From Polytrichum commune (taxonomy: Eukaryota > Streptophyta > Polytrichopsida > Polytrichales > Polytrichaceae): DNA of 64,000 nt. The notes beneath the pieces were generated by a model. That model worked only from the letters and a program-made list of their open reading frames with translations, was not told the DNA's origin and did no database searches. This document shows, one piece after another, positions 5,804 to 64,000 of the stretch. A program made the position numbers and the translations under genes. Location: NCBI GenBank assembly GCA_950295325.1, contig OX485803.1, forward strand, positions 57,363,554 through 57,427,553. Direction: 5' to 3'. Position 1 is the stretch's first letter. Every line of letters starts with the position of its first letter.

Positions 5804-5840
5804 CGAGATTCTTCAAGTATTTGCTTCCTTTCACTTACTC

Positions 5841-13661: not shown

Positions 13662-13860
13662 GAGCAATGAACGGGTAGTGCCGGCAGTTAGTTCCAAGCT
13701 AGCCGGTTGATTTTGAGAATTTCCAAATGCAATTGGAAAGTTTAGGAAGGGGTTCCGGAAGAAAATCAAGGTTTATGGAAATGGGCCGATTTGAAGAAAA
13801 AAAATGCCAGCATTAAGGCAAGCTGCCCTAGAGTATCCACGGCAAATTACCGATTGAAAA

Positions 13861-28738: not shown

Positions 28739-29530
28739 TATTCGTGATGTGAATGATTTTTTCTTAACCCCAAAATTGATGAAGGATATCGTAACAAGTA
28801 CATTAAATAGCCCTATTATTGTGGGCCATGGTAATATTTTGAAGCTCAAGCTAATTCTCAATATGGCGATTATTGTGGGTCACATAAATTTTCAATCCAC
28901 ACTCAATTTCTAGTGTAAGATTATCTTGGTCCTAGGACATTACTTTGGTGATTGTTTTATTTTGTGCTACTTTTGTCGTGTAACTAATATTCAATGTGTT
29001 GGTCGGAAGTCTTCATTAAGACTTAGGGGGAAGGCCCGGGGTCTTGGACCTACATAGATCGATATAAACGCCAGCTCCACATGGAGCAACCATTAATGAC
29101 GAGGTTCTTTGCCTGTATGTTGCTTCCTCTTTTTGGAGGGTGGGCTCTATATGAGGTAACATTGTCATAAGTAAACAATGTGATTGTGGTAGTGTAGGGG
29201 GTAAGGAGTATTGTGTTTAAGTATGATAGTGGGTTGTGGTGATGTCACCTTGGAGTCATGTTGGTCGTTTGGTGGGTGCCTAAGATTTAAATTTGATTGA
29301 AGGCCCAAGGTCAAAACCATGTGGGGCCCCTTTGAGAGTTATTCAATCTTTGACCCACATTTATGCCACCTTGACTACAAAAATGGTATGGCCCACACTA
29401 ATTATTTCCATGCTAATTATCAACCCAAACTAATAGGACTATTTAGTGTAGTAGACTTATTCACATTGGAAAAAGATTCGATGAAGCCAATGTTTGGTAA
29501 TGTCAAAATGACCAAGTTTATTGAGTAAAT
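28739..29530. other. No gene recognised
   Basis: AT-rich sequence with some resemblance around 28,795-28,910 (ACATTAAATAGCCC, GTGGGCCA) to host repeat Y. No coding evidence. Confidence 0.4.
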
Positions 29531-29673
29531 AAATAGAAACTCCGGTCCCTTTTTAGCAAGGGGCCGGCGTGAATGAAGTGTCCGTTCGTAATGCCAATGA
29601 CCCGATGCCCACTAGACAAGGGGACATTGGGACAATACTACTCTCCCCTTTCGAGGATGGACACTATAGTGAC
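29531..29673 (+). repeat. Short dispersed repeat V, copy 1
   Basis: ACTCCGGTCCCTTTTTAGC...GGGGCCGGCGTGAAT...GTGTCCGTTCGTAATGCC...TTTCGAGGATGGACACTATAGT is repeated in direct orientation at 31,752-31,882. The unit contains small hairpins (CCGGTCCCTTTTAGGGGCCGG). The class is unknown. Confidence 0.7.
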
Positions 29674-31751
29674 ATATTGAGTATAAGTAAGCTTCAGGTC
29701 TTACAGATGTAATAGTTGGAGACTTCACATAACTTATACCCCTAATACCAAAAAAATTCCCCCTTTTCAAAATGATATACATACAATATGTACCTAAGAT
29801 ATCCCCTTGAATAAATAAATCATATAGACCCCAACCATATGTATACCCCGCAAAAATCATATGCCTAAAATACTCTTAGCAAGAAATATTCATTTATCAT
29901 TGATAGATTTATTGAACACTTGTTCGTCCATTGGATGTAACTCATATAAATTTGTTTCTACGATATAAATCATTGTAGCCAATGCAATAATGGTATCCAA
30001 CTCTACCATCAAATCGTTTGTCAAATTGCATGTCCATATTGATCCATTCTTATTTTGATACCAACATAACCTTATGTCCATATTACAAGGTTGGTTCAAG
30101 AGGTCAATTAGTTGTCGATACTCAATCCACATGTTGCCAATTTTGTAGCGCATCCTATAGACCCTTCCCAAATACCAAATCTTGGTGGTCAATGGTTTAG
30201 CCGACTTGCTTTTTAATCCCTTTCTTCACTTCTTCAACTAATGCTTGAGAGACAAATGATACTGCATAATCACATCTCAATTTCAAGGACTAATCATTAT
30301 CCCCAGCTCTGAATAGTCAAACTTTAGGGTTGGCATAAAACATACCATATATGTTTCTAGTGAACCTATCCTTGGACAATGTGGGATTACCATTCAACTC
30401 ACATATTGGATGAAATATTCATTTGGAGCTCTTGTAGATTACACACTTCATTATAATTGACCATGGGCCTAACGATAGAAATACAACTAAGAGTATATGA
30501 ATAATATGCCTAGTTTATTTATGAAGCTAAAATAAATAACACCCATACCTTATGTATATTTTGTAACCCCTAGGCATAATTAATACCCCTTTTGTGCTAC
30601 CCACGTGGATCAATACTTTTAAGAGTGAGTGTATCCCTCGAGAGGAGTATATAATCGATATATCTTATGTCACACATGTATCCATCTTCCTTTGGATACT
30701 CTCTTCAAATGTTACTAATTATTGAAATGTTAAGGATAAGAGAGATACTAATTTTTGCAAAAATCATGAGTATTCAAATCTTAGTATTTAAAATTCAACC
30801 TAATTATCTCAATTCCAACTTCTCTCAGATTCAATCAAACGATAGCTTTTAAACAAATATATCAAAATCGTTATAATTTTAATTTCCACTACCCAAATTG
30901 TATATTGTGAATGGATGGGCAAACATCGTGGAGCCTTTAATTGTGTGTAGTTTCACATTTACCTCATTCTCACTTCAAGTCAACAATAAAACATACATCA
31001 TAACAACTCATATCTTCTCCCCATGCATACTTACGTAGGCTTATAATGCAGTTGAAAATGAGGCACACTTTATGTTACCGTCCCCCCCCCCCCCCCCCGG
31101 ACATAACCTCATAAGAAGTAAGATTCCATCACTACGTATTTGAGAATGTCGTGTTCAGAAACCTCAGGTCTTTCTTTCAACTGGACGAGCAAGTCAACAG
31201 TAACCTCTATCTTACGGAGACTACCACTCTCCATCATTCTAGGAAATTACCTTATTTGAAACCAACTTGATGTACTTTTAGTCCTATTGGCCTTTTGGCA
31301 TCCCGAACTTGGAAGTTGATTTCATTTCATTAGATGTCAGTGACGAGTCATCCAAAATATAAAGGCCGTATACAGTATTTGGGCGATTGAAGAATATGTG
31401 TATTAGTTTGTAATATTTTGTATGCATATTATAAGGGCCTGCTCCGGAGGTATCATCTTTAATTAGCTAGAATGGAAGCCCAGGCTGGGCAGCGCCAGTC
31501 AACGCATCCCAAAGTATACTCATGGAAGGCGTATCGTACTCTGAAATGTACCTGGTACGAACATACGGTGGAGGGCATGTCTGGGCTCTGACGCAATCCG
31601 CATTCGAGTGACACGTGGACGGAGATCAAGGATGTATGGCATACGCGCTCCTTGGATGGATTGGGAAGAATGCCACGTGTCAACTTCTTTATGAAATAAG
31701 GCATGTATGCAGGCTCTATCTGGTCATTCTTCTTAATTGGACAGATAGATA
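29674..31751. other. No gene recognised; C17 run at 31,082
   Basis: AT-rich. A minus-strand frame at 29,890-30,192 (100 codons) has no recognisable domain. A pure C run of about 17 lies at 31,082-31,098. Confidence 0.45.
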
Positions 31752-31882
31752 GAAACTCCGGTCCCTTTTAGGGGCCGGCGTGAATAGAGTGTCCGTTCGT
31801 AATGCCAACAACCCGATGCCCACAGGACATGGGGAAGCTGGGACAAAACTACTCTCCTCTTTCGAGGATGGACACTATAGTA
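31752..31882 (+). repeat. Short dispersed repeat V, copy 2
   Basis: Direct repeat of 29,531-29,673, slightly shorter, with the same block order. Confidence 0.7.
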
Positions 31883-31934
31883 ACCGAGAAACAGTAACCG
31901 AGAAACAAATAACATGGGCCGATTATGGCCCACG

Positions 31935-32165
31935 GAGGTGCATGGCTTTTAAGGATAATTAGTGTTTTTGTAATGAGAGTGAACGCCAAGTCATGATTCC
32001 TCGGTTGGTTGTGGGAGGATGTTTGAGTTAAGACGTTCCGGGTTCGATTCCAGTTGAGTTCGTATGATTGTCTAAAATGTAACACATGACTTGGTGCTGT
32101 AAGTGAATAAAAGGCAGGAAATTTGTACCAACCAACCGGCACCAGTCCCTCATTCTGAGCTGTAA
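31935..32165 (+). repeat. Possible tRNA-derived SINE-like sequence
   Basis: TGGTTGTGGGAGG (about 32,005) and GGGTTCGATTCC (about 32,039) resemble Pol III A and B boxes at tRNA-like spacing. Roughly 100 bp of unrelated sequence follows, directly next to the 3' end of retroelement copy A. There is no second copy in the window, so this is a weak call. Confidence 0.3.
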
Positions 32166-32299
32166 GTAGATACTAGATATTATATAAGATATTATATAAG
32201 TTTTTGGGTTTTATGGAGGGTTTAAGTTTTGGGGGAGCGGTTGGTGGTTTTCAAGTCTCCTCTTATGTAGGAGGATGGACATGGCATATTGTATTGCAA

Positions 32300-32890
32300 T
32301 AGTATTAATGTTTTTAAAGGTATTTTTGATGGTAACCATGGGTATTTTGAGATTTTCTTCTAGTATTTTTATGGATGGGATGTGGGCCGTAGCTCGGGCC
32401 CCAGCTGTGAGGACAATAAGTGGTTCGATTTTCCATCCTCTAGAAGCGATACTGTCAATCAGTGGTTTGTATTTGTTGTTTTTTGCTTCTATAGTTTCTG
32501 GGGAAAATCTGTCGTTACAATATGTGAATTCGATAAATTGTATGGTGAGGTTAGGGTCAACGTCGATGGGAGGGTCATTTTGATATGGTAATCCTTTGAC
32601 GCATAGTATGTCAGGGCGAAACCTTGCATTGCAATTACATCTTTGTGTGTTACATGCACAGGGGAGTAGCCAATTGGGGACAGTATTTTCTTGGGGATTA
32701 TTATTGAAGGTACCGGCATTCATGAGGGTAAAACATCGGGATTTTTCGGACGAGATTAGGAGCTTCCTAATTTCTCCAACTGCTTTGTTATGTCTTTTAA
32801 CTCGTAGTGAGTGTATATGTTGTTGGTTACATTTCAGTAGTACATGTAGCCAAGTGTCTGGATCGTTTGAATTGCATATGGGACACGTGA
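32300..32890 (-). other. R2-type restriction-like endonuclease module in copy A ORF2
   Basis: Downstream of RNase H the protein has a CPIC...H....C cluster (C-x2-C-x9-H-x4-C), then KRHNKAVGEIRKLL, then RFRPDI, then FIEFTYCND and EAKNNKYKPLI. This order (CCHC, RHN, PD...E/D, A-x3-K-Y) is that of the RLE of R2-group elements. The gap between PD and the acidic residue is longer than usual because of an inserted Pro/Asp-rich loop. Function is inferred from motif order; fold prediction would settle it. Confidence 0.65.
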
Positions 32891-35800
32891 TAGAGGGGTA
32901 CCTCTGGTGACCGAAAAACATTTGTTTTCTAGCATTACCCATGTATGTTCTTGTGCGGAATTTAATAAGGCATGATTTTTGTTTGTCTGTGATTAAGGGA
33001 TTTGTCCAGAACTCGTTGGACAGTTCTTTGTCAATGTCTATATTTTCTGTCCATTTACACGTGTTGGGGGTTTGTGTGGCCATGACTGCTATATTGGTTT
33101 CCCTGTCATATTTTTTAATTTGTTTTTCTAAGAATCTTACTGGGCCTTTGTCTGGGACTTCTTCCATTGAGGCCCAGACGTCCTTTTGATAATAGTATGG
33201 GGTGGCGTGGGCATGTTCGTATGGGTGTATGGCGATTCTGTGTTCTAATTCTAACCCGTCTTTTGCTAGTTTATCCGCTTTTTCATTACCATCAATGTTG
33301 ACGTGTGCTCTGACTTTGTATAATGTGATAGGCTGTGTACGGTCTTGGAGGATTTTTACCATGGAGTTGAGTGTGGTTTGGTCTGGGTGACTATTATGGA
33401 GAGTGGGGTGTTTAATTTGTGTGTTGAGTAGATATAGTATGTTTAGACTGTCTGTGAATATAAATGCGGGTTCATTAGGGAATTGTGTATTGATGATTCT
33501 TAGTGTTTTGTGTATAGCCATCATTTCTGCACGTAGTATATTTTGATGCCCATGGAGTCTTTTGGCGATATTGAAGCCTTTGGGGCTATAGATACCGTAT
33601 CCAGCTCTTTCTCTTATCCATACTCCAGGGGCAATTTCTTTGGGTTTTATAAAGGATCCATTTGTGTAATAGCTAAATTGGGGGTGGAATTTTAGTGGTA
33701 AGTTGGTTTGGTAGTTTGGGAGTTGTGGGGTGGGGTTATTATTGTATAGGGGTGTGTTTGGGTAGTTTGATTGAGCCCATTTTTTACTAGGGTTAACGGT
33801 GATGTTCGGAGGGGTGGGTGGTGCAATTTGAGTGTGGCTTTGTAATATTTGGAGGTTATTTGCTGTGTCGTGTATTAGCTTCATTTGTTCGTAGGTACCT
33901 ATGTTATTATTTTGGTGATGGATACAGAATATTTGCATGGTAGATGGTTCTTTCCTTGTAGTATTGAGTTCGGGGGGTATTGTTGGTTCTTCGTATGTGA
34001 TTGTGTCAGTAGCAAAATGGGCAATGACATGTGTGTCTGGGAATGGGCCTATGTGTGGGTTCGAGTTTTGGTACCAGTCAGTGTCTGGGGATATAATTAT
34101 AGTGATTGTGTAAGGGTCATTTTGGGCCGCCATGCGCGCCCAGTGAATGGCTTGTTGTAGGTCTGTTGAGGTGTGAGGATGTGCGTATCCAATTCTTTGC
34201 CATTTATAGTCAAACACTTTTCCTAAGGATCCGAATATTATGTCTCGTGAGAAGGGTGAGTAGAATTGGGTGAATTGTGTAGGACATGTAACTGGGGATG
34301 AAAAGTATGAGTGGGTAATATTGAATGTTGTAATTAGTAGATCCAATATTTGAGTTGGTATTGTATATTGGGCTCTTTTGAGTGGGTCGTTTTTTGGGAT
34401 ACGGTATTTGTATCTTTGGTATAGCCAGACAATTTCAGTTTCGAATGATTGGATAGATGGTTCTAGACCATATGTGGTATTTTTTGCCAATTGGTATTGT
34501 TTCCATAGCCATGTTAGTCTAGCTTTCGGGATGGTGATGAGATGCCTTCCATTGTCTTCGTATATGTGGGCGACATCGAATTGTGTTTGGATAGTATCAG
34601 AATTTGTTTCAATGTCGTTTTCTGGGTTGCATTCACTAATAGAGATATGTGCTAGCGGAATTATTGTGGATGATGTGACGTATCTTGTGTCTCGGTGTTG
34701 TTCCGTGCTGAAGTAAGCGTTAATGATGTTTGAAAAATGATTGTGTTGTCTTTCTGTGTAATATTGGATAAGCATGTTTGTGTTGTGGTTGCATATGTGG
34801 GCTTCACAGTAGGGGTATAGGTCCCTTTGGGTTCGCCATTTATTATATGTGTTGTTATTTGTTGTGGTCCATTGATACATATATGACGTAACTGTTCTTT
34901 TTATTCCATTGTGGTCGTTAGTTTGTTTTTGTTTGTGATCGAGTATTTTGTGTATGGGAAATTGTCTGGGGTCTTTAAGCATGTTGTTGGGGGGAGGAGG
35001 TAGATGGGGGATGAGGGGGTGTACGGGGGCGGTCGGTGTGTGAGGTAGGATGTTGTGATTTCTTATTATATATTTGTTTTTGAGGGATCTTGGTGGGTGG
35101 TGTTGTTGGCAGGGTAGGGGGCATTGATTGTAGGGGGGGTGGCAGAATAGTTCATTAGCTATGTTAAGTGCGCTTTGGATAAGTTTAGAAGGAGTGGAGT
35201 GGTAGTTTTTGAATTCGTCCTTGTTCATCAGAGTGGTACCATTAGGCAAGGTAATTTGGTCTAGTGTGATTATATTATATATAAGTAATTTGTGTAGTAG
35301 TTTAAGTGAGGTGTTGGGGTTTAGGCCATGTAGTATTTGTGCTTCTTGCATCCATGCAGTTTCAAGTGAGGATGGGGTTAGTAGAAAGTTATTTATTGTG
35401 CTTTTTAGATGGACTCCGGCTTTATGTTTTAGCAGGAACAATGTTCTAGTGATGGGTGATCTAACACAGTGGTGGTATTTAATGCGAGTGATTTCTTGAG
35501 AGCCCCCATGTGTGGCGAGTATGAATTGTACTAGACCGGTATATATTCTCCCAATTCTCCCTTTGTCATTGAGGGCATTTTGTAATTGTTCTCCAATGCA
35601 CCTTAGATAGGCATTTTGTAATGAAAATGCTTCAATTCCAAATAGGTTGTGGGGGAGTTGTGTGGCAATATTAGATGTGCATTTAGGTATTCCGCATATT
35701 GTTTTATGGAGTGCGATGATTTTTTTGTCTAGTTTGTTGATGGCTGGTATGGAATATGGTACCGCATAAAAACTATATGCTATTCCAGCACGTATGACTG

Positions 35801-38800
35801 TGTCTGCCATATTGATTTTTTGTTTCATAGTAGCTGGGCAAGCTACGAGGGCTTGACATTGTTTGATTACTTTAGCTGTGGTGATATTTATTTGTGTTGT
35901 CCATTTGAGTGATGGTGCAAGATTTATTCCTAGGTATGTATAGGGTTCATGTTGGTTTAGGACTGGTATAGGTTGGTTTCTATAGTTTATGTTAGTGGAT
36001 TGGATTAGGGCCTTGAAGGTTGTGGGGTTAAGTTTGGATTTGTTTGGGCATCCAGTCACTGTACATTTTGGTATACCTAGGTCCATTCCTGCTCATTCAC
36101 AGAATTTGTCTAGTTTGTTTAATTGTGTTTGTAATAATTCTAGTTTGTTGGCTATTGCTGCAAGATCGTCTGCATATGCTGCTGATGAGATTTTCACTCT
36201 AGACGTACCGAAGGTATATCCATTATTTCTTTGTTGCAGCCATCTAATTAGGGGTTCCAAGAATATGATAAATAGATATGGGCTAAGGGTATCGCCTTGT
36301 ATTGTACCTCTTTGGATGTGGATTGGTAGAGTTTTCCCGAAGTGTTCGCCGGTAAATATGGTTGATGATTGTGAGTATATGTTTCCTATGAAGTTTATGG
36401 AGTCATTGGGATAACCCATGTCTTTCATTATGGCTAATAGTCTGGCGTGGTCAATGGAGCCAAAGGCGTTTTTGAAGTCAATATAAAGAATGTATATATC
36501 TTGGTTTGTGAGTCTGGCATCTTCAAGTGCTGCAATTAGTATTTGGATTTATCTGGAGGTGTTTCTTTCTGCTCTGAACCCTTCTTGGCTATCGTGTAGT
36601 ATTTTGTATCTTTCTCCGTATGCTGATAGGATAGAAGTTAGTGTGCTTGTGTATAATTTATATATAGTGTTAGCTAGTGCAATAGGTCTGTGATTTGTTA
36701 GTTGTGATGGGTTACCTTTTTTATATAGTAAAACTGTTAGGCTAGTTTTCCATGATGTTGGGATTTGTTTTTGTTTATAGCAGTGTTTAAAGAATAGAAA
36801 TAACATTTTGTGAAAGCGTGGAGGCATATTTTTTAGAATTGAGTTGGAAATTTTGTCTGGGCCTGGGACTTTATTATTACTTAGGTTTTTAAGACAGAAG
36901 TCGTATGTTTCTTTATCAAGGTATGTGTGTAAGGGAATTTGGGGTTCTCCTCGTCTGTCGATTGTATATCCATCTAAGTCGTGCCAAGGGTATTGCCTTA
37001 CTCCACATGTACAGTGAATTGGATGTGTATTTTGATGGTGGCATGTGGGGACTGTTGGGCGGTTACTGATGGATTGTTGTGCGTAAATCTCTAAAGCAAT
37101 GTCTTCAGGGTTGGTTAATATGTTGTTTTGTCTATCAATGATGGAGTCAAGAGGTGAGGTTTCAGTGTTCTTGAAGACTTTCCGATTTATTTTCTTGGGG
37201 CTTTTTTCATACATTTGACGGTATTTTGATACGGCTTTTAGGATGCAGTCTCTGGTGTATTTTGTGGTAATTTTTCTAGCTTCTTTATTTGCCATTTTTG
37301 CGATAGTTGCTATGGTGTCAATCCATTCGACAGGAGATGTTGTTGTAGTAGGTGGGTGCGGGATGTTGACGTGTTGGTGGTTTCGGATATCATTTAGGAT
37401 GGGGTGTACTTGCCAGCTTGGATCATTTTGTACAATGTAAATGGTTTTCCTGATGAGGTGATATGTGTTGAGGTGTCTTTTCCATTCTCTAGCTAGTTTG
37501 CGTGGTAAAAAACCACCTTGTTTTGATGTTTTGTTTGTGAGGTTGGGTAGAGGGTCTGCTTTGCAGGTTTTTTCAATTGTTTCTGAGATTTTGTTTATAA
37601 TGTATTCTAATAATGTGCAGGCATTTTGCCATTGATCAGGTGTTAAGTGTTGGTTGTCTTCTAATAGTGTGGTAAGTTCTTTAAGTTGGGTGGAATTTTC
37701 TTCGAAGAATGTTATGTTAAAGTTTTCTAGGTTTTCCGGTGGTATCGGGTTCAGTATCCTAGTTGGTGTGGTGTTTGTAGAGGGCGGAGGTCTAGCTATA
37801 AGTGTGTTGTGTGGGATGTGTAATGTGACTGGGTAGTGATCTGAATTTAGATTCATGTTTGTGTTTGTAGTGGAGGTAAATTTGCTGTTGTCAAGGGAGT
37901 GAATGTAGAAACCATCTATTAGGCTTGTTGATGTGTAGTTGTAGCCACCTTGTCTGGAGATACTAGTGTTGGTAGTGATATATTCTAAGTCGAGAGATGT
38001 AGTAAATTTTTTCCATTGGAAGTCCTCTTCTTGTGGGGGGGTAGTAGTGTTGTTATTTTGTCTGCCCCTAAGTGCAATATCTCTGTTAAAGTCACCGCAC
38101 AGTGTGTATATGTGATTGGGGTGTGTAGTGATTTGTTTAGTGATTTCATTCTTAAGGTGTGGGATAAGACATGTGTCTTCTGGGTGCGTAGGCATATACA
38201 TGTGTATAATTAGCCAAGGTGTTAGTGGGTGGTTGTTTATTTTTATTACTTGTAGGTACGGGGAGATGTTTGCTAGAGTGGGAATTTTGGTGACATTTCC
38301 CGGAAATGCATATTTGTGATGGATAAGTGTGAGTAGGCCACCTCTTCCGGGGGTATAGGGCATTCTTTGTTGGATGCACCTCGTGAGTGCGTGTGTGTTG
38401 TTGAAAGTGAGTTTGAATTCCGGAAATAAGTTTTGTATATATTTAGTAGATTTGTTTGCAGTGAGTTTGGTTTCTTGGATATGAATGATTGCTGTGTTAT
38501 TTAGAGAGTTGTTGATTAAGTCTTGTAAGTTTGGTAGTGATGTGTTGAGCGATGACGCATTCCAAGTTATTATGCTTGTTTCGTGCTCGGTGTTAGAGTT
38601 CATTCTTGTGATTGGTGTGGGAGCGGCCGGGAGTGGGGGTGGGTGTGAGTATTCGCTTATATTTTCTAAACATCTAAGTATTTCGGTTATTAACTGGTTT
38701 GGAAGGAAGGGGAATTCTTTCTTGAGGGTGATTGGTGTGGGTGTGGTGGCTTGGTTGTGGATGAAATCGTATATTTTGGTGTGTATTGAGTTTTGGGGGA

Positions 38801-38842
38801 GTATTATATGTTGATTGTTTTCTATGAATATTGTGTAGGGGT

Positions 38843-39223
38843 GCGGTGTCAGTATGTGTCTTTCGGGGGGTTGGTGAGGTTAGCTAGTCTAATAATTAGT
38901 GTGTTGGTCCATATGTCGTTAAAGTGGTAGTTTTGGGGTTGGGCTAGTATACTATTGCATGTGTCTATTGAGGGGTGGATGGTGATGACTATAGCATATA
39001 GCATATGGGTTGGTGGTGATTGCCTTTGTGTTTGGATGTATTGGTGTAGATGTGGGTGGGTAATTATTGCTTGATGGTGTAGAGGGTGTGTATTTCTTAG
39101 TATGGGAGCAAATGTATTTGCTATGTGTTGGTATTCGGGTTGTAGTTTGATAGTGTTTGGAATGAAGTATATCTTGGCTCTCTTTTTGTGTGTAGCAGGA
39201 TGCGTATGTAGGATGTTAGGCAT
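38843..39223 (-). other. Post-2A linker region of ORF2
   Basis: About 125 residues follow the NPGP motif before the C-tract lesion. They begin with a basic stretch (MPNILHTHPATHKKRAK) and include IYFIPNTIKLQPEYQ. No domain is recognised. If the 2A works, this is the new N-terminus of the enzymatic polyprotein. Confidence 0.4.
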
Positions 39224-39250
39224 TGGTCCGGGGTTGGATTCTATGTCTCC
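39224..39250 (-). other. 2A-like translational recoding sequence (GDIESNPGP)
   Basis: The ORF2 protein reads KLELLKCGDIESNPGP, matching the D-(V/I)-E-x-N-P-G-P consensus, with the leucine-rich helix that precedes functional 2A sequences. Such motifs make the ribosome skip the Gly-Pro bond and release the upstream chain. It lies near residue 880, between the basic low-complexity region and the enzymes. 2A sequences are known in some APE-type LINEs (for example trypanosome L1Tc and several animal clades). Activity here is inferred from the motif. Confidence 0.8.
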
Positions 39251-39500
39251 GCATTTTAGTAATTCTAGTTTGTTAATGAAGTAGTATCCGTGGAAGTGAA
39301 TTATTTTGGGGTTTTTCATGTTTGTTTTTAGATATATTGTGATTGTACATTTGGTTGTGGAAAATAGGTTAGGTATAGCGGGTATGGTTTTTTCTATTTG
39401 TATGGGTGAGAAGTGTGGTTTCGTATTATTTGTAGATTTATGGCTTGTTATTGAGTTAGGTTTCCAATTATTTATGAAGTGGTATTTGTTATTCTTTGTG

Positions 39501-39530
39501 TGGCGAGGCCGGTAGACCGAGGCCATTGTG
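39501..39530 (-). repeat. GC-rich MASVYRPRH block, copy 2 of internal duplication
   Basis: A nearly identical 27-nt GC-rich block (ATGGCCTCGGTCTACCGG...) in otherwise G-free sequence is also at 40,941-40,970 in copy A and 63,050-63,076 in copy B. About 80-90 residues after each block align loosely, and only this second copy runs into the 2A motif. Confidence 0.7.
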
Positions 39531-40940
39531 TTTTTTGGGTGGGGTTGGTATTTTATATGAGGGCTTAATAGGTGTTTGATTTTGTTATGGTGTTCGAATC
39601 TAGGGTAGGGTTTATTTTTGGAGCATTTGTTTTGTAGGTGTGCTTTGGTATTTGTTGAGAGGTGAGGTTGGTATGTTGAGGTTGCTTTGTTTTTCGGGTT
39701 GAATTTTTGTTTAATATGTATATTTAGTTTTGGGTGGGGGTGGTTTTTGGGGAATGGTTTGTGGTTTTGGTGGGTGTTGTATTTAGTTGTTAGGTGTGTA
39801 TGGGAGTTGTCTTGGAGTACGTGTTTTGTGGTTGTGCTTGGTTTCCATTTGGTTGTGATAGGGTTTGGTTTGTGGTGAAGATGGTAGGTCACGGTCATTT
39901 CGTAGTTTTGACATAGTTTGTTTTTCAAGTGGAGGTTGGGTTTGGAGCTAGGGTATGGTGTGCTTTTTGAGCTTAGGTTGGGATGTATTTTAGATAGTGG
40001 ATGGGGCTCTAGGTTAGGTTGGTTTTCTTGCTTTGGGTGGGTATTATGTTTTGGGCATTGTTGTGGATGCACTTTGTTTTTTAGGTAGAGTTTAACTTTT
40101 GAGTGTATTCTATATTTCGGATGAAGTTTATTATTTGGATGAGAGATGTGTCTTAGATGGAGTCTATGTTTTGGATGAGGTATGTATTGTGGGCGAAGTT
40201 GGGGGTGTTTGTGGTTTGGGGATAGTTTGGTTTTTGGATGAAGTTTGTGTTTTAGGTGGACTTTGTAATTTGGGTGTAGCTTGTTTCTTGGATGGAGATT
40301 GTGCTTTAAGTGGGGACTATATCTTATGTGAGGGTAGTATATTGGGTGGGGCCGTGGTGGTTTTTGTTTTGGGTGGGTATGTTGTTGTGGGGGGGGATGT
40401 TGTATTTCTTAGTTGATTGGGTGGAGGATAATTGATTAGGTTAGGGTAGGTTCCTAGTTCATAATGTGGGTTATGTTTTGGATGAGATATGTATTTTGGG
40501 TAGTTTATGTATTTTGGATGGGATCCGTGTCTTGGATGAAGGAGGTGCCTTGGATGTGGTATGAATTTTGAGTATTTAACGGAGTCCGGGTTGTGTATTA
40601 TGTTATTTGATTGTTTAGGTGTGAGGGAGGGATTTAGTTTTGAGTACGTCCTTTGTTTAGGATGCAACTTATATTTTAGATGTGGTTTGGATGTAAGATG
40701 GAGTTTGTTTGTTGGTATGGTGAAGGTATCTTTGATTTGGATGCATGATGAAGGTATCTTTGGTTTGTTCTTGTTTGATTTGTGGTATTTGTTTGGTGTG
40801 TATTTTGTTGTAGGGGGGGTGATGGGTGGGGTGGGTATAATGTTTTTTAGTTGTTTAGGTATGGATTGTAATTTTGTATGTTTGCTTGTAGTTAGGTTAG
40901 TTCCCCAATATTGTGTAAAGTTATTTTTGTATTTAATTTT

Positions 40941-40970
40941 ATGGCGAGGCCGGTAGGCCGAGGCCATTTT
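40941..40970 (-). repeat. GC-rich MASAYRPRH block, copy 1 of internal duplication
   Basis: First copy of the block described at 39,501-39,530, about 1,440 nt upstream in the same reading frame (before the C-tract lesion). Confidence 0.7.
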
Positions 40971-41442
40971 ATTTTTTGGGTATTTGTAATTTGAGTGGTA
41001 GTTTGGTGTTGAGAACGGTAGTTTATTAGGTATGGGTTGTGTTTTGTATGTTGGGTGGGGTTTGTATTTTTGGTGGAGTTTATATGTTTGGTGGGGATTA
41101 TATTTTGGGTGTAATATGTATTTTGTGTGGGGTTTGTATTTTGGGTGTGTATATTGTTTCGTTTGAGTTATGTCTTTGTGCATGTGTAAAGTAAAGTGAT
41201 TGTATTTATATTTCATATGGTATTTTGGCTGTCGTATGGTATCATGGCTAGTATGATGGTATCTTTTATTATAGAGTACGGACTTTGTTGTAGGCGTGTG
41301 TATGATGTTTGGGTATGGTCGGGTTTTAGTCTTATTTATTCTTTGGTTTTTTATGATCATGTTTTTGTTTATAGTGAAAGGGTTAGTTTTGGCGGGTGTT
41401 ATGCTTTTTATTTGTTTGAGTAGGGAGTATGTGTATTTTGGA

Positions 41443-41900
41443 TTAATTGTATGGTATTTGTATTTTGTTTGAGTATAATGTTTTGTTTGGGTGTTGTATT
41501 TTGCTTGAGTGTGGTATTTTGCTTGAGTATAACATTTTTCTTGAGCATGGCATTTTGCTTGAGTATGGTATTTTGTTTGAGTATGATGTGTTGCTTGGGT
41601 GTAGCATTTTGTTTGAGTATGGTATTTTGCTTGAGTATGGTATTTTTTTTGGGTATGATATTTTGCTTGGGTATGGTGTTTTGCTTGAGTATAGTATTTT
41701 TCTTGAGTATAGTATTTTGTTTGAGTATGGCATTTTGCTTGAGTATGGTTTTTTGCTTGAGTATGATATTTTGTTTGTGTATGGTATTTTGTATGGTATT
41801 TTTCTTGGGTATGGTATTTTGCTTGAGTATGGTATTTTGCTTGAGTATGGAATTTTGCTTGAGTATGGAGTTTGTTTTCGTATAAAGTAGATAACTTGTA
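41443..41900 (-). repeat. 18-bp minisatellite at the start of ORF2 (copy A)
   Basis: About 24 copies of an 18-mer like AAATACCATACTCAAGCA, encoding YHTQAK hexapeptides in the ORF2 frame (KIPYSS in another). Copy B has fewer units (about 18) at 62,240-62,560, so the array has changed length between copies while staying in frame. Confidence 0.9.
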
Positions 41901-42085
41901 TTTCATATGGTATTTTGGACATTGTGGGATACTATGAGTAGTACGATGGTATCTAGTATTTATTCTAGGTGAAATAGTATATAGAATACTATGTGTAATA
42001 CTATGTTTAATACTATGTCTACATATGTGTATGTATCTAAGATAGTATTGAAGTAAATACTTTTGTTTTACCCGGCGATTTGTGG

Positions 42086-43192
42086 TCAATCCACATTTGG
42101 CAGGTCTTTGATCATAAGATTTGGATTTACCAACCCAGTAATTTGTTGCATCCCGGTAAGTGCCATGGTTAATGTGCTTTGGATGTCCAACATTTGCTTC
42201 TTCAATTTTTCGTTGATGTCATCTACATAGTTGTGGGCCTCTTTGACTATGTCTTCCTTCAAGACCTTCATCTCTTCGTGTAGTTCAAGCTTGAGTTTCT
42301 TGTTGCCTTCTTCAATGGCTTCCTTCATGATGGAAAAAACTTCGCTTTTGGTGGCATTCTTCTCCCCTTGGTTTTGGTTTTGGATTGCTTCAATGGTGTT
42401 CACCAAGCAAGTGTTAGTATCCTCAAATCCAAACTTGATCAACAAATCTTTGGAGGGTTTGTCAATACCATCAAGACTTCTACGGTGTGAAGTGATTTCC
42501 ACATGATAAACACCAATTTTTTCCTCTTTTCCTACAAACTTTTTGTATACAAAGGGGTTGAGGCATTCAACATTTGCACTACCATTGTGTCTAATTCCAT
42601 CTTGCTTATGGAACCAAATGGAGACAACATTCTTGGTTCCAATTATCTTGCAAATTTCAAGAGATGTGTCATCAATGCTCATCAAGATGGGAAGGTTGTA
42701 GAGGGTGAGAGTTAGAGCTTCTTTCCTTTGTTTTTGCTCCAAGGTGAGAGAAGGTCCTTTGTTCACTTGTCCTTCCAAAATTTCATGGTGTGTTGCAACT
42801 TGGAGTTCTTGAATTTTCTTGGCTTGTGCGGGGGTCGGTGCAACAATGTAAGCATGGTTGTTGGAAGTGCCCTTTTGCACCTCTACAATCTCAAATTCAT
42901 AACCTCTCCTAAAACTATTCTCTAGAACATCTTTGAAGAGCATGTGTGAAGAGACATCAATCAAAGTTTCACTAGTGATTTTGATTGAGAGGTTGTTGTT
43001 CCTAGCTATGGAGTGGTAAGTCTTACATACCTTTCCAAGAGTACCTTGGGTTGATTTGGGGTCCAATTGTAGTATGAATGGTCTAAGTCCTTTCAACAAG
43101 ACCACACCATCAATTTCGGGGTGGAGAAGGTGGAGTTTGGCAATACCCGCCCAAACTCCTTTCTCTCCACCTCTCTTGACACTCATGCACAT
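42086..43192 (-). pseudogene. Copy A ORF1, 5'-truncated
   Basis: Matches residues 202-569 of the intact ORF1 in copy B almost identically, from MCMSVKRGGEKGVWAG to the final LPNVD. Homology continues only about 20 bp upstream of that Met, ending near 43,213, so roughly 200 N-terminal codons are missing. The rest of the frame is open. It includes an RRM-like block and the C-terminal coiled coil. Confidence 0.85.
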
Positions 43193-43213
43193 AATAGATA
43201 TGGGCGATATATT

Positions 43214-44510
43214 TTTTAACTCCGGATCTTGTCATAGGATTCATAAGGCAGAGGGAAGAAAAAATGGTTGAGCGGAGCTGAGGAACAGAAACAGGGAGGG
43301 ATTGTTGCGTGAAGGTATGTGTTAGGTCACAGATCTAAAGCTATATGTGAGTTCCGGGAGGAGTGATGCCCAGATCGTGATTCACAAGTGAAGATTGTTA
43401 GATCTAAACCTAGATTTCATTGAGTGATGTAGCTGCCTCAAAGTGGATTGGTACTGAAGCGGGCTGGAATCCACGAGTATGAGCATGTGTTGGTGCCAAT
43501 GGTTAATGGTGAAGCAGCAACACAAATATGAGATCTAGGGTTACCAGATACCCAAGCGCAACATGACCCAAACTGCATAACATACCAACAAGATACAACA
43601 CATTTGACACTGCCCCGACACTGCTTCGACTAGGAGGCGCAACAAGCATAGCTCCCGGCGATCAGTATCAACTCGAACCTCGGAGCAAGCGACACTGCTC
43701 CGACAAGGAGGCGCAACAAGCACAACTCTTAAACATCGGCACTACCCCGAAGGAATCACAAGGAAGAAGGCGGGACGGTGAAAACTGTGCTGATGATACA
43801 CCAAACAACGACACACCAAAAAGATTTGTAAAGCATTCTCCCAAGTAGATGATTAGGTTATATTATTGAGTGATTAATGCATAGACAGATTAGCAAAGTC
43901 CCAATTTGTGAAAGTCCAAAAGCTAGAAGCGAGATCTGTGAAAGCGAAATAACCTGTGATTAGGCCACTGATCTGGGTAGAGGAAAGCAGATCTGAAACA
44001 AAAGTTTAGAGATTCAGAGAACCTGCGAAGATAACTAGTTTGCAACAACAGCCTAGCTACTATTTGTTTGAAAAAACTGAGATCTGTAAGGTAACCGACT
44101 TTAAGAGTGTGTGGTAAGAATAAGTGTAAACTGATCTGAAGCTTCGCATTCTAGAAAATCTGTGAGGACAATCCAAACCCACAAACAGCAGCATAACTGC
44201 TACTCTGTTCGAAAAAACTAGGGGGCTACTGACGTTAGAAGTTAGAGACCGATTACATCTATTGTGTGATTAAAATGCATAGGCAGATTTGCGAGTCCCA
44301 ATCGGTGAACTAGAAGCGAGATCTATAGAGCTTCAGAAAGCTAAGGGGCAGCCGTCTTCAAAAACTAGAGGCCGATCCGAGAATAGTGAACTCCAAAACT
44401 TTAAATCCCAGCCGTAACCCAGAGACACTCCAAATTCTCTAAAGGGCAAGTAAGATCGACAAACAGCAGCCGCGCTGCCACACAGACATAAAAATTGGCC
44501 AATTGCTGAG
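43214..44510. other. No gene recognised
   Basis: Sequence upstream of the truncated retroelement. AGATCTGTGAAAGCG/AGATCTGAA-type motifs recur at about 43,330, 43,935, 43,990, 44,080 and 44,320, suggesting old degenerate repeats. No coding evidence. Confidence 0.4.
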
Positions 44511-51535: not shown

Positions 51536-51911
51536 CCTCTAACCTCACAAGGACCATCCAGCCACCCTAAACCTCCACCCCCAGCTCTCACCCTAAACCT
51601 CCCGAAAATCAAAAGCGAGGTGCCCATATCTGCCAATAGGAGTAGGGGTCTGTCGGATCCAACGCTCACCTCTAACCTTACTAAGAAACTCACACTCACA
51701 CTCACCTTCACCTTCACCTTCGTCTTTTTCTTTCTTTAAGGATGCCTAGTGGGTTTGAAGCAAGGGTTATGGGTTCGCCGCTCACATACTTCGCCGCTCC
51801 GCTCACACAGACTTCGCAGCCTAAAGACGCCGCTCACCCTCGGAGACTAGGAGGCACAAGACTAAGGCCATGAGCTATGCGTAGCTCATGGCGTGGTGAT
51901 TCTAGAAAGCT
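51536..51911. other. No gene recognised; palindrome relic at 51,650
   Basis: Continues the CTCACCTCTAACCTC-type repeated text with one half-palindrome (CTGTCGGATCC) at 51,650, then unique sequence to the LTR-like repeat. Confidence 0.45.
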
Positions 51912-52658
51912 GAAGAACACCTCAATCGGAGGTGTGAGCTAGGAGTTATGGCCATTTGAGTGGGGCGCTGTCGCGGGACAGCGCCCTGGTCGAGCATTGC
52001 CTGGGAGTCATTCCCGGGACTGCAAGGTTCAAACAGGCATAACGTCGTCAATACTTGCATGAATGGGTCAAGTGAGGGGTCCATCGGCATCTACGTGAAG
52101 CGTAGATGAAGATGGAGTGGTTGGTTGTTGGAATCAAAAATCATACAAGAAAGTTATGGTGGTCTGAAGCTGTTGGGGGCTTCTAGGCCCAGCAGCTAAA
52201 GGAAAATGTCTACTTGGCCCCAACTCTTGGTAGAGAGACAAGAGGTTGGTTGACGGTGGGGTAGGGGCCCCTCGTAGAGTCCTAGAGGCTTATATGGCTG
52301 AGGTGGTGTGGCCTCACCCACCCGAGGCCGAACGGCACGGCCTCATTGGGCTTTGGCCCATTGTGAGGCCATAGTTGCATAGTATGGTTCGGGTTGTTGT
52401 AGTGTTGCTCCGGCAACGCGATGATCAACATGGGATTGGACTTCCATCGATGGAAGTCCACATTTGGGAATGGGTTACCGATTAAGGGGTGAGTCCCGAA
52501 AGCAAAGTAGGAAGGTTGGTTCTCCTCCTATGAACTAACCGGTCCGGGTAGGAGGAGCTAACCATTAGCTTGGCGGTATGCGAAGGGTTAGTACTCGTAA
52601 CCTATGCTAGAAATGCGAATTGGCAAGATTTCTAAGGGGACTAGCAAGGGTTGCGACA
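51912..52658 (-). repeat. LTR-like dispersed repeat, copy 2 (inverted)
   Basis: Minus-strand counterpart of 12,940-13,661, starting TGTCGCAACCCTTGCTAG at 52,658 and ending AGGTGTTCTT at 51,912. It lies between the 466-bp and 170-bp tandem arrays, apparently splitting a formerly continuous array. Confidence 0.6.
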
Positions 52659-53760
52659 ATCTAGCCACCCTAGAAAGCCACCAAAAATCAGAGAATAACC
52701 TCACATTTCTGCCCCCAGCTTTCACCTTGAACCTCCCGAAAATCAAAAGCGAGGTGTCCATATCTGCCCCTAGGGGTCTGTCGGATCCGACAGTGCCCCT
52801 AGCTCTAACTTCTAACCTCACTAAGGACCATCCAGCCACACTAGGCTGCACCAAAAATCAGATAATAACCTTATATTTCTGCCCCAACTCTCACCTTGAA
52901 CCTCCCGAAAATCAAAAGCGATGTGTCCTTATCTGCCCCTAGGGGTCTGTCGGATCCGACAGTGCCCCTAGCTCTAACTTCTAACCTCACTAAGGACCAT
53001 CCAGCCACACTAGGCTGCCACCAAAAATCAGATAATAACCTTACATTTCTGCCCCAACTCTCACCTTGACCCTCCCGAAAATCAAAACCGAGGTGCTCAT
53101 GTCTGCCCCTAGGGGTCTGTCGGATCCGACAGTACCCCTAGCTCTAACTTCTAACCTCACTAAGGACCATCCAACCACACTAGGCTGCCACCAAAAATCA
53201 GAGAATAACCTCACATTTCTGCCCCCAGCTTTCACCTTGAACCTCCCGAAAATCAAAAGCGAGGTGTCCATATCTGCCCCTAGGGGTCTGTCGGATCCGA
53301 CAGTGCCCCTAGCTCTAACTTCTAACCTCACTAAGGACCATCCAGCCACACTAGGCTGCACCAAAAATCAGATAATAACCTTATATTTCTGCCCCAACTC
53401 TCACCTTGAACCTCCCGAAAATCAAAAGCGATGTGTCCTTATCTGCCCCTAGGGGTCTGTCGGATCCGACAGTGCCCCTAGCTCTAACTTCTAACCTCAC
53501 TAAGGACCATCCAGCCACACTAGGCTGCCACCAAAAATCAGATAATAACCTTACATTTCTGCCCCAACTCTCACCTCTAACCTCCCGAAAATAAAAAGCG
53601 AGGTGCGCATATCTGCCCCTAGGGGTCTGTCGGATCCGACAGTGCCCTTAGCTCTAACTTCTAACCTCACTAAGGACCATCCACCACCCTAGGAAGCCAC
53701 CAAAAATCAGATAATAACCTTACATTTCTGCCCCAGCTCTCACCTCTAACCTCACTAAGG
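52659..53760. repeat. About 170-bp tandem array with palindromic core
   Basis: Six units are phased by CTGTCGGATCCGACAG at 52,778, 52,947, 53,117, 53,288, 53,457 and 53,627 (spacing 169-171 bp). That 16-mer is a perfect palindrome with a BamHI core. The first two units recur nearly exactly three units later (52,670-53,010 and 53,180-53,520), so there is a higher-order period of about 510 bp. Open frames through it are repeat artefacts. The unit length resembles plant satellites, but the array is short. Confidence 0.9.
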
Positions 53761-60323: not shown

Positions 60324-62033
60324 ATGGAGGTAGACACACCCACACAAAACCTCATGCGGCTCTTAGCGGAGAAGGCAAAGGAGAATCAAGCTGCGAAGGA
60401 AATAGGCACCAAGAGGACCCGGGAGAAGACAACACCGAACAAATCTCTACACCAAACCCCACAACGACGCCCACAAGCCACACAGGTAAACTCTATCTTC
60501 CCGGAACGAAGGTTCCGTCAAAAATTTTGGTATGGTTTCACTAACATGGAGAAATTGGCTATGGATGAGGGGTTGGAAGAGCTCTTCGATGGTGAATCCA
60601 TCAAAGATAGGGTACTTAGGGGTGTACCAAGGAAGGAAGCGGAAGAAATGGAGGAGGTCGCAATTTCCTTCCCAAGGATACCCCAAATCTACTACCCAGG
60701 TAAGAGAGAGGATGGTGTCCTTGGACAACACCTCAACCTAACACAAATCCCATATGATATCCCAATTGATCCCAATACATGTCTTGCTTTGGACTTTCAT
60801 GTTGCTATTGAATTTCAATTACCCAACACCCCTCTCCTACACAACCATGTGAAAGAACTAGTAAAGAAAAGACTTGAGTTTATGCAAATTCCTCTTGGCA
60901 CTAACCTTATTGAGCCCATATCTATCATGTGCATGAGTGTCAAGAGAGGTGGGGAAAAAGGAGTTTGGGCGGGAATTGCCAAACTCCACCTTCTCCACCC
61001 CGAAATTGATGGTGTGGCTTTGTTGAAAGGACTTAGACCATTCATTCTACAATTGGACCCCAAATCAACCCAAGGTACTCTTGGAAAGGTATGTAAGACT
61101 TACCACTCTATAGCTAGGAACAACAACCTTTCAATCAAAATCACTAGCGAAACTTTGATTGATGTCTCTTCACACATGCTCTTCAAAGATATCTTAGAGA
61201 ATAGTTTTAGGAGAGGTCATGAATTTGAGATTGTAGAGGTGCAAAAGAGCACTCCCAACAATCATGCTTACATTGTTGCACCAACCCCCTCACAAGCCAA
61301 GAAAATCCAAACACTTCAAGTTGCAACACACCATGAAATTTTGGAAGGACAAGTGAACAAAGGGCCTTCTCTCACCTTGGAGCAAAAACAAAGGAAAGAA
61401 GCTCTAACCCTCACCTTCTACAACCTTCCCATCTTGATGAGCATAGATGACACATCTCTTGAAATTTGCAAGATAATTGGAACCAAGAATGTTGTCTCCA
61501 TTTGGTTCCATAAGCAAGATGGAATTAGACACAATGGTAGTGCAAATGTTGAATGCCTCAACCCCTTTGTATACAAAAAGTTTGTAGGAAAAGAGGAAAA
61601 AATTGGTGTTTATCATGTGGAAATCACTCCACACCGTAGAAGTCTTGATGGTATTGACAAACCCTCCAAAGATTTGTTGGTCAAGTTTGGATTTGAAGAT
61701 ACTAACACTTGCTTGGTGAACACCATTGAAGCAATCCAAAACCAAAACCAAGGGGAGAAGAATGCCACAAAAAGCGAAGTTTTTACCATCATGAAGGAGG
61801 CCATTGAAGAAGGCAACAAGAAACTCAAGCTTGAACTACACGAAGAGATGAAGGTCTTGAAGGAAGACATAGTCAAAGAGGCCCACAACTATGTAGACGA
61901 CATCAACGAAAAATTGAAGAAGCAAATGTTGGACATCCAAAGCACATTAACCATGGCACTTACCGGGATGCAACAAATTACTGGGTTGGTAAACCCAAAT
62001 CTTATGATTAAAGACCTGCCAAATGTGGATTGA
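60324..62033 (+). CDS. Copy B ORF1: RRM-like and coiled-coil protein
   Basis: An intact 569-residue protein, presumably the RNA-binding partner of the element. The N-terminus is basic (GTKRTREKTTPNKSL). Around residues 365-450, LTFYNLP and NGSANVEC resemble RNP2 and RNP1 of an RRM-like fold. Residues about 490-540 are rich in Glu/Lys heptads (EEGNKKLKLELHEEMKVLKE) and form a probable coiled coil for multimerisation, as in L1 ORF1 proteins. No CCHC knuckle is visible. The start is the first ATG in a frame open to the stop. The stop TGA overlaps the opening of the ORF2 frame. Copy A retains residues 202-569. Confidence 0.85.
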   Translation: MEVDTPTQNLMRLLAEKAKENQAAKEIGTKRTREKTTPNKSLHQTPQRRPQATQVNSIFPERRFRQKFWYGFTNMEKLAMDEGLEELFDGESIKDRVLRGVPRKEAEEMEEVAISFPRIPQIYYPGKREDGVLGQHLNLTQIPYDIPIDPNTCLALDFHVAIEFQLPNTPLLHNHVKELVKKRLEFMQIPLGTNLIEPISIMCMSVKRGGEKGVWAGIAKLHLLHPEIDGVALLKGLRPFILQLDPKSTQGTLGKVCKTYHSIARNNNLSIKITSETLIDVSSHMLFKDILENSFRRGHEFEIVEVQKSTPNNHAYIVAPTPSQAKKIQTLQVATHHEILEGQVNKGPSLTLEQKQRKEALTLTFYNLPILMSIDDTSLEICKIIGTKNVVSIWFHKQDGIRHNGSANVECLNPFVYKKFVGKEEKIGVYHVEITPHRRSLDGIDKPSKDLLVKFGFEDTNTCLVNTIEAIQNQNQGEKNATKSEVFTIMKEAIEEGNKKLKLELHEEMKVLKEDIVKEAHNYVDDINEKLKKQMLDIQSTLTMALTGMQQITGLVNPNLMIKDLPNVD

Positions 62034-62212
62034 CCACAAATCGCCGGGTAAAACAAGAGTATTTACTTCAATACTGTCTTAGATACATACACATATGTAG
62101 ACATAGTATTAAACATAGTATTACACATAGTATTCTATATACTATTACACCTAGAATAAATACTAGATACCATCGTACTACTCATAGTATCCCACAATGT
62201 CCAAAATACCAT

Positions 62213-64000
62213 ATGAAATACAAGTTATCTACTTTATACAAACACAAATTCCATACTCAAGCAAAATTCCATACCCAAGCAAAATGCCATACTCAAACAA
62301 AATACTATTCTCGAGCAAAATACTGTACTCAAGCAAAATACCATACCCAAGCAAAATACCATACCCAAGCAAAATACCATACTCAAACAAAATACCATAC
62401 TCAAACAAAATACCATACTCAAACAAAATACCATACTCAAGCAACACACCATACTCAAACAAAATACCATTCTCAAGCAAAATGCCATGCTCAAGAAAAA
62501 GGCTATACTCAAGCAAAATACCATACCCAAACAAAACACTATACTCAAACAAAATACAAATACCATACAATTAATCCAAAATACACATACTTCCTACTCA
62601 TACAAATAAAAAGCATAACACCCGCCACAACTAACCCTTTCACTATAACCAAAAACATAATCATAAAGAACCAAAGAATAAACGAGACTAAAAACCGACC
62701 ACACCCAAACATCATACACACACCTACAACAAAGTCCGTACTCTATAATAAAAGATACCATCATACTAGCCATGATACCATACGATGGCCAAAATACCAT
62801 ATGAAATATAAATACAATCACTTTACTTTACGCATGCACAAAGACAGAACTCAAACGAAACAATATACACACCCAAAATACAAACCCCACACAAAATACA
62901 TATTACACCCAAAATATAATCCCCACCAAACATATAAACTCCACCAAAAATACAAACCCCACCCAACATACAAAACACAACCCATACCTAATAAACTACC
63001 GCTCTCAACACCAAACTACCACTCAAATTACAAATACCCAAAAAATAAAATGGCCTCGGCCTACCGGCCTCGCCATAAAACTAAATACAAAAATAGCTTT
63101 ACACAATATTGGGGAACTAACCTAACTACAAGCAAACATACAAAATTACAATCCATACCTAAACAACTAAAAAACATTATACCCACCCCACCCATCACCC
63201 CCCCTATAACAAAATCCACACCAAACAAATACCACAAATCAAACAAGAACAACCCAAAGATACCTTCATCATGCATCCAAATCAAAGATACCTTCACCAT
63301 ACCAACAAACAAACTCCATCTTACATCCAAACCACATCTAAAATATAAGTTGCATCCTAAACAAAGGACGTACTCAAAACTAAATCCCTCCCTCACACCT
63401 AAACAATCAAATAACATAATACACAACCCGAACTCCGTCAAATACTCAAAATTCATACCACATCCAAGGCACCTCCTTCATCCAAGACACGGATCCCATC
63501 CAAAATACATAAACCACCCAAAATACATATCTCATCCAAAACATAACCCACATTATGAACTAGGAACCTACCCTAACCTAATCAATTACCCTCCACCCAA
63601 TCAACTAAGAAATATAACATCCCCCCCACAACAACATACCCACCCAAAACAAAAACCACCACAGCCCCACCCAATATACTACCCTCACATAAGATATAGT
63701 CCCCACTTAAAGCACAATCTCCATCCAAGAAACAAGCTACATCCAAATTATAAAGTCCACCTAAAACATAAACTTCATCCAAAAACCAAATTATTCCCAA
63801 ACCACAAACACCCCCAACTTCGCTCACAATACATACCTCATCCAAAACATAGACTCCATCTAAGACACATCTCCCATCCAAATAATAAACTTCATCCGAA
63901 ATATAGAATACACTCAAAAGTTAAACTCTACTTAAAATACAAAGTGCATCCACAACAATGCCCAAAACATAATACCCACCCAAAGCAAGAAAACCAACCT
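62213..64000 (+). CDS. Copy B ORF2, N-terminal part (incomplete at window end)
   Basis: From the ATG at 62,213 the frame stays open to base 64,000 (about 596 codons), through the YHTQAK repeats, the MASAYRPRH block and the seven-C tract at 63,621-63,627. The same frame is already open upstream to a TAA near 62,009, crossing the ORF1 stop without an ATG. It corresponds to 41,906 to about 39,980 in copy A. The content is His/Lys/Pro/Tyr/Thr-rich, with no known domain before the window ends. Confidence 0.75.
   Translation, partial: MKYKLSTLYKHKFHTQAKFHTQAKCHTQTKYYSRAKYCTQAKYHTQAKYHTQAKYHTQTKYHTQTKYHTQTKYHTQATHHTQTKYHSQAKCHAQEKGYTQAKYHTQTKHYTQTKYKYHTINPKYTYFLLIQIKSITPATTNPFTITKNIIIKNQRINETKNRPHPNIIHTPTTKSVLYNKRYHHTSHDTIRWPKYHMKYKYNHFTLRMHKDRTQTKQYTHPKYKPHTKYILHPKYNPHQTYKLHQKYKPHPTYKTQPIPNKLPLSTPNYHSNYKYPKNKMASAYRPRHKTKYKNSFTQYWGTNLTTSKHTKLQSIPKQLKNIIPTPPITPPITKSTPNKYHKSNKNNPKIPSSCIQIKDTFTIPTNKLHLTSKPHLKYKLHPKQRTYSKLNPSLTPKQSNNIIHNPNSVKYSKFIPHPRHLLHPRHGSHPKYINHPKYISHPKHNPHYELGTYPNLINYPPPNQLRNITSPPQQHTHPKQKPPQPHPIYYPHIRYSPHLKHNLHPRNKLHPNYKVHLKHKLHPKTKLFPNHKHPQLRSQYIPHPKHRLHLRHISHPNNKLHPKYRIHSKVKLYLKYKVHPQQCPKHNTHPKQENQP
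62240..62560 (+). repeat. 18-bp minisatellite at the start of ORF2 (copy B)
   Basis: About 18 units of AAATACCATACTCAAGCA type, in frame, homologous to the longer array in copy A (41,443-41,900). Confidence 0.9.
63050..63076 (+). repeat. GC-rich MASAYRPRH block in copy B
   Basis: ATGGCCTCGGCCTACCGG... stands out in sequence otherwise nearly free of G and matches the two blocks in copy A. Confidence 0.7.

Follow-up and report, generated by a model that had tools for sequence, protein, structure and literature searches.

A Dualen/RandI-type non-LTR retrotransposon of Polytrichum commune with a 2A motif and a PCIF1/CAPAM-like domain in ORF2

We analysed a 64,000-nucleotide stretch of the Polytrichum commune genome (GenBank assembly GCA_950295325.1, contig OX485803.1, positions 57,363,554 to 57,427,553, forward strand; hereafter the window). 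It carries a real non-long terminal repeat (non-LTR) retrotransposon of Dualen/RandI type that combines a 2A sequence, an apurinic/apyrimidinic-type endonuclease (APE), a reverse transcriptase (RT), RNase H and a C-terminal R2-type restriction-like endonuclease (RLE). A first-pass annotation had placed a 2A, an APE, an RT, an RNase H and a CCHC-RHN-PD...E module between 32,176 and 43,213, and the 2A, the APE motifs, the RT, the RNase H and the CCHC-RHN-RPD..E block are all present there, on the minus strand. Its second open reading frame (ORF2) also encodes a PCIF1/CAPAM-like domain, which that motif-based description did not contain and which a Pfam scan and fold comparison revealed. On balance, the sequences lead us to favour a Dualen/RandI variant in which the 2A would shed a dispensable leader and the PCIF1-like module would act as a non-catalytic reader of cap or RNA. 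The features of the element in the window are as follows.

31743..43205, minus strand: element copy 1, 5′-truncated within ORF1; 3′ end set by the common (CTAT)n tail, 5′ edge by homology with copy 2
42089..43205, minus strand: ORF1, 5′-truncated; the 381-aa open frame at 42,089-43,231 takes in a few flank codons
39263..42089, minus strand: ORF2 leader before the 2A, with many repeats and weak constraint; frameshift within 40,320-40,408
39224..39262, minus strand: 2A motif LLKCGDIESNPGP, from motif and conservation
38582..39223, minus strand: post-2A domain of about 215 aa; frameshift within 38,852-38,879
37800..38582, minus strand: APE-type endonuclease, from motifs IITWN, QET, GDFN and SDH, Pfam and the fold of a relative
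35862..36935, minus strand: RT core; YADD at 36,162-36,176, stops at 36,549-36,551 and 36,093-36,095
33852..34691, minus strand: PCIF1/CAPAM-like domain, with AHPH at the catalytic loop position (34,170-34,190)
33243..33689, minus strand: RNase H, first catalytic Asp replaced by Asn in the window copy
32232..33071, minus strand: R2-type RLE region, with CCHC knuckle (32,829-32,885), RHN and RPD..E..K
31743..32210, minus strand: 3′ untranslated region (3′UTR) of about 470 nt behind the ORF2 stop, ending GGGACCGGAGTTT(CTAT)n
60324..64000, plus strand: copy 2 of the element, ORF1 complete (569 aa); cut off by the window end, ORF2 broken too

The enzymatic domains are supported by matches in the window copy and in its relatives. 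The APE of the window copy matches PF14529 with E 1.7e-4, below the Pfam cut-off, and that of relative P0121 matches PF03372 above cut-off (E 5.4e-6). The fold of relative P0114 supports the APE; the second structure model is poor, with a mean predicted local distance difference test (pLDDT) of 51.6, and was used for its APE part alone. RVT_1 is matched with E 6.5e-26 in element copy L031. The first catalytic Asp of RNase H is kept in 27 of 30 copies (Asn in one, His in one, no match in one). Fold comparison supports an R2-type endonuclease at the C-terminus.

A search with the RT region returned 80 proteins of 1,223-3,732 aa. The RT tree holds 92 rows, after exclusion of nine proteins (seven without a sufficient RT stretch, two short rows), and another set of 50 proteins was kept out of it. 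In this tree, 53 of the 92 rows form one side of a branch (ultrafast bootstrap 100, SH-aLRT 99). This clade contains P0052 of Pleodorina starrii, with APE, RT and a Josephin match above cut-off, and P0031, with OTU (above cut-off), APE, RT, PCIF1 and RNase H. Pleodorina is one of the volvocine relatives of Chlamydomonas. Three R2 rows, taken from a printed alignment, and the plant L1-like rows fall outside the clade, and the RT of the element does not group with R2.

The element has the following Dualen/RandI features: APE upstream of the RT, RLE downstream of it, RNase H, and a non-A microsatellite 3′ tail. Behind the RNase H region, 25 of 30 long clade members have the CCHC/RHN/RPD block, and many of these proteins are also listed with an APE match (PF03372 or PF14529). 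Dualen/RandI elements have an N-terminal cysteine protease (OTU); Pfam matched no protease domain in the scanned parts of the window family's ORF2. The first-pass interpretation is thus partly supported: with a tree that held no named Dualen reference from Repbase, we infer the Dualen label from the architecture (APE, RT, RNase H, RLE) and the one named alga. In another clade member, P0056, the RT and PCIF1-like domain are accompanied by a PHD finger and a match to cytosine DNA methyltransferase. The sister group in the RT tree (P0061, P0062, P0065, P0067) has RNase H and no PCIF1-like domain; P0065 and P0067 carry a Ulp1-type protease.

With a profile seeded with five family members, we found the PCIF1-like domain in 38 of 97 proteins; this profile is trained on the clade itself, and Pfam's own model is the outside check. 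Of the 80 RT-search proteins, 16 are listed with the Pfam model, which scores above cut-off in P0023, P0020, P0031 and P0056 and exceeds the cut-off at 150 of 150 scored places in the host genome (697 candidates). All 30 members of the RT clade with at least 779 aa behind the RT have the domain, and the members without it have at most 558 aa there. None of 12 proteins checked outside the clade has it; only the four of the sister group among these exceed 1,100 aa behind the RT, and two of the four give non-significant profile hits (E 0.54 and 1.2). In the family controls, 0 of 14 genomes gave a match; the set is not known to include any plant and is hence a weak control. No host PCIF1 gene was found: the 10 loci inspected, out of 150 matches, are without exception element copies with AHP[HP].

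In PCIF1, NPPF (553-556) is the catalytic motif, and mutation of its residues inactivates both PCIF1 and METTL16 (PMC7927073, PMC10544176). A catalytic-dead Drosophila Pcif1 is also cited (PMC10544176). phmmer aligns the AHPH of the window family, found in 29 of 30 copies (no match in one), with ANPPF of PCIF1, of which neither the Asn nor the second Pro nor the Phe is retained. Among 35 sequences, one SPPF fits the quoted pattern [DNSH]PP[YFW] (PMC7927073), 10 have NPEY, three carry a different residue ahead of PP[YFW], and 21 depart from it in other ways, the AHPH or AHPN of the window family among them; P0008 is frame-shifted at this loop. Selection was estimated in six pairs of copies as the ratio of nonsynonymous to synonymous substitution rates (dN/dS). 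The ratio is 0.06-0.08 in the PCIF1-like domain, against 0.07-0.09 in the RT part, 0.06-0.12 in RNase H and 0.06-0.12 in the RLE region; it is higher, 0.10-0.29, in the spacer behind the domain. The domain is under strong selection with its catalytic signature gone. Because selection is strong despite this loss, the data hint at a reader rather than a writer as the most economical reading. The helical and methyltransferase domains of PCIF1 bind the m7G cap (PMC7927073, PMC10544176).

Several points weigh against a non-catalytic reader. The phmmer match of the window domain to PCIF1 chains (E 0.022) is weak by itself, and a segment of P0046 gave no match to PDB sequences at E 0.01. The linkers beside the domain, with dN/dS of 0.07-0.19, come close to its level of constraint. 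Since 10 of the 35 sequences keep NPEY and one keeps SPPF, some clade members may still be catalytic.

Two alternative functions have to be weighed for this domain. It could be a structural or protein-protein module that binds neither cap nor RNA, a possibility that we regard as doubtful: the catalytic motif is lost across most of the clade and a fold by itself shows no function, but the presence in 30 of 30 long members and the RT-level constraint fit any essential role and single out none. Alternatively, the domain could still be a methyltransferase which modifies the cap-proximal adenosine of the element, or another adenosine, with an altered loop. The strong purifying selection, the NPEY and SPPF sequences and some tolerance in the published pattern (PMC7927073) would suit such an enzyme, yet the window family has lost just those residues whose mutation kills PCIF1 and METTL16 (PMC10544176, PMC7927073), and we consider continued methylation unlikely.

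The 2A is a selection boundary, with dN/dS of 0.45-1.1 upstream in a stop-free frame and 0.04-0.16 downstream. D[VI]ExNPGP is kept in 31 of 50 relatives of the 2A region and altered in four more; the remaining 15 begin at or after the 2A or do not show the motif. In P0102, P0110, P0114, P0119 and P0121, the 2A stands in one frame with QET, GDFN and SDH. Ratios and stop counts were taken from three pairs (copies L007, L027 and W2). From 170 to 100 codons before the 2A, dN/dS is 0.45-0.65, and from 100 to 30 codons 0.65-1.11; it is 0.11-0.25 across the 2A, 0.12-0.16 behind it and 0.04-0.08 in the APE. The leader frame has no stop in 281, 580 and 923 codons, compared to 20-57 stops in the other two frames. 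Because the upstream frame is stop-free with weak residue constraint and the downstream part is strongly constrained, the pattern fits a leader that is translated by necessity and then discarded, and the 2A motif is a probable ribosome-skipping signal. G is extremely scarce on the coding strand of the leader (5.9-7.0% in window 38900-42000, L007, L027 and copy 2); the whole ORF2 strand is base-skewed, and ORF1 is not.

A discarded leader is harder to reconcile with the following. When the other long clade members were searched for the motif, none had a 2A, which was seen only in the window's family. In the 70 codons before the 2A, the synonymous rate dS is low (0.17-0.25) and the ratio uncertain. 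L027, with an intact frame, reads DIKPNPGP, off the 2A consensus, and a Met directly follows NPGP (NPGPMPNIL).

Accordingly, we weighed whether the 2A-like motif is incidental, with enzyme translation beginning at the AUG right behind NPGP and the open leader left untranslated. The adjoining Met, the weak constraint upstream, the consensus lost in L027 and the gene-caller starts of several relatives, which lie at this Met, all agree with such a start. It would leave the low dN/dS of the 30 codons up to the Met (0.11-0.25), the D[VI]ExNPGP of 31 relatives and the open frame over 281-923 codons without a reason, and we judge it improbable.

The window copy itself is damaged. The earlier proposal of one uninterrupted ORF2 with about 3,230 codons does not hold for the window copy, which is 5′-truncated and has two frameshifts and two stops in ORF2. 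The first frame change (40,320-40,408) has no counterpart in copy 2, which is continuous there; at the second (38,852-38,879), the frame runs on unbroken in relatives including P0102 and P0121. At the in-frame TAA (36,549-36,551) and TGA (36,093-36,095), two relatives (P0004 and P0018) encode Q and W, and an alternative genetic code was rejected on this ground. The homology between copies 1 and 2 ends at 43,205, inside ORF1. The 3′ limit, earlier put at 32,176, moves to 31,743, behind the 3′UTR and the (CTAT)n.

Intact copies are found elsewhere in the genome. The host assembly (408 Mb, 64 contigs) has nuclear light-harvesting genes, with 58 matches to PF00504; its LHCII protein scores highest against a 620-residue LHCI-2 chain (9vfj), followed by 8htu and 7xqp, which are Physcomitrium entries, and these matches suggest the green plant lineage and probably a streptophyte. 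In a protein search of this assembly, 36 copies were scored among 7,608 first-look candidates, with 86-100% identity. Twelve of the 36 have no stop within the matched half, and five have a single open ORF2 (2,625, 2,625, 2,625, 2,663 and 2,924 aa). The breaks in the window copy might suggest a decayed locus in which the two endonucleases belong to separate elements, nested or fused into a chimera. The intact ORF2 copies rule this out and leave it a negligible chance; the long clade members that carry the CCHC/RHN/RPD block (25 of 30), many of them listed with APE as well, also speak against it. L007 and L010 are 99.13% identical across 12,014 nt, and L010 has CCATTCTTAA on either side, a 10-bp target site duplication; none was resolved for L007 or the window copy. 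Given this near-identity and duplication, L010 is a recent insertion via a reaction of the long interspersed nuclear element (LINE) type. Both 5′ truncation, seen in the window copy, and the duplication in L010 are non-LTR traits.

The 3′UTR end GGGACCGGAGTTT(CTAT)n, with its non-A microsatellite tail, is common to 28 of 28 copies examined, and the flanks beyond are unrelated by eye; two further loci without the 3′ end motif were left out of this comparison. The 3′UTR (31,800-32,200) holds an antisense tRNA-like B-box stretch, absent from L030. Site-specific insertion beside a tRNA-like sequence was rejected: the stretch belongs to the common 3′UTR and flanks differ after (CTAT)n. Scanning the window for tRNAs and Rfam families gave no hit. 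Window 29,529-29,673 is an 87% match to the element 3′ end. A search of viral contigs found no relative of the element.

The two reading frames differ in how well they are conserved between copies. The copy 2 ORF1 shares 39% identity with its counterpart in L007 and 29% with the one in L027, but over the C-terminal half of ORF2 the window copy is 87-93% identical to L007 and L027. This difference points to exchange or very fast evolution of ORF1, in which Pfam matched no domain. The ORF1s of L031 (P0148), L033 (P0150) and window 60324-62030 represent subfamilies 29-39% identical. ORF2 lies in the -1 frame in L007 and copy 2 and shares about 20 nt with ORF1 there. L027 uses the other frame for ORF2, and an ATG immediately precedes its ORF1 stop.

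Based on these features, the element would encode a fast-diverging ORF1 and a giant ORF2, which ribosomes would enter via the leader, its frame held open and its residues nearly free. The 2A would then skip one peptide bond and give the enzyme a clean N-terminus. Each nuclease most likely cleaves one strand in target-primed reverse transcription, presumably without site specificity because the flanks of 28 copies differ. The RT would copy RNA ending (CTAU)n, and RNase H would clear the template. The PCIF1-like domain, by descent a cap-adenosine methyltransferase, is most likely non-methylating in the window family and would hold the 5′ cap or cap-proximal RNA, so that full-length capped element RNA is favoured.

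More tentatively, an ancient LINE branch may have captured an mRNA-cap methyltransferase that then became an internal cap reader, present in every long member seen and with catalysis eroding repeatedly; through it, the element would recognise full-length RNA with a cap, either ahead of target-primed reverse transcription or in its course. In the window lineage, the 2A may have taken the place of proteolysis in releasing the enzyme from its N-terminal part. It is a long-standing question how LINEs discriminate their own capped full-length RNA from other RNA and complete the 5′ end. With a conserved cap-enzyme fold in its polymerase protein, this LINE clade would provide a direct handle on both own-RNA recognition and 5′ completeness. 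The sharp selection boundary at the 2A also shows how a retroelement can live with an N-terminal leader that is nearly unconstrained.

The window also contains unrelated features. A separate plant L1-like LINE lies on the minus strand at 1550-8315, with a 1,417-aa APE-RT-zf-RVT ORF and an 824-aa ORF with DUF4283. An inverted repeat pair (12940-13665 / 51909-52658) is 85% identical, and a tandem array (52655-53753) adjoins one of its arms.

Among known systems, Dualen/RandI of green algae is the closest: it likewise unites APE, R2-type endonuclease, RT and RNase H within one ORF (PMC3636483, PMC4640811) and has a non-A microsatellite 3′ tail (PMC3747384, table), and RT-clade relatives of the window element carry OTU or Josephin-like N-terminal protease matches. 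The window element differs in its 2A and PCIF1-like domain and in having no protease match in the ORF2 parts scanned. Neither a methyltransferase-like domain nor a 2A is mentioned for Dualen in the covered parts of PMC4640811, PMC3747384, PMC8226300 and PMC3636483, and our literature search, mostly by listings, turned up no publication describing a PCIF1-like domain in a retrotransposon. The domain is probably new in Dualen. Compared to R2, the element has an RT outside the R2 rows, adds APE, RNase H, PCIF1-like domain and 2A, and has no insertion site common to the 28 copies. It shares the PCIF1 fold with PCIF1/CAPAM, but the window family lacks NPPF, its ORF has no WW match in Pfam, and the domain is embedded in a retrotransposon polyprotein.

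2A-bearing APE-type LINEs include L1Tc and families of sea urchin and other animals, in which D[VI]ExNPGP precedes the APE-RT protein (PMC4981915); in the parts covered, these are described as non-LTR/APE-type only, whereas the window element joins the 2A to dual endonucleases. Finally, SymbioLINE-Dnmt, KnitGypsy-Dnmt3 and the DIRS Dam-like elements are retrotransposons with captured DNA methyltransferases (PMC5890265), and like them the window element carries a conserved methyltransferase fold. Theirs act on DNA, whereas that of the window element is an RNA-cap enzyme fold inside ORF2 with an eroded catalytic motif.

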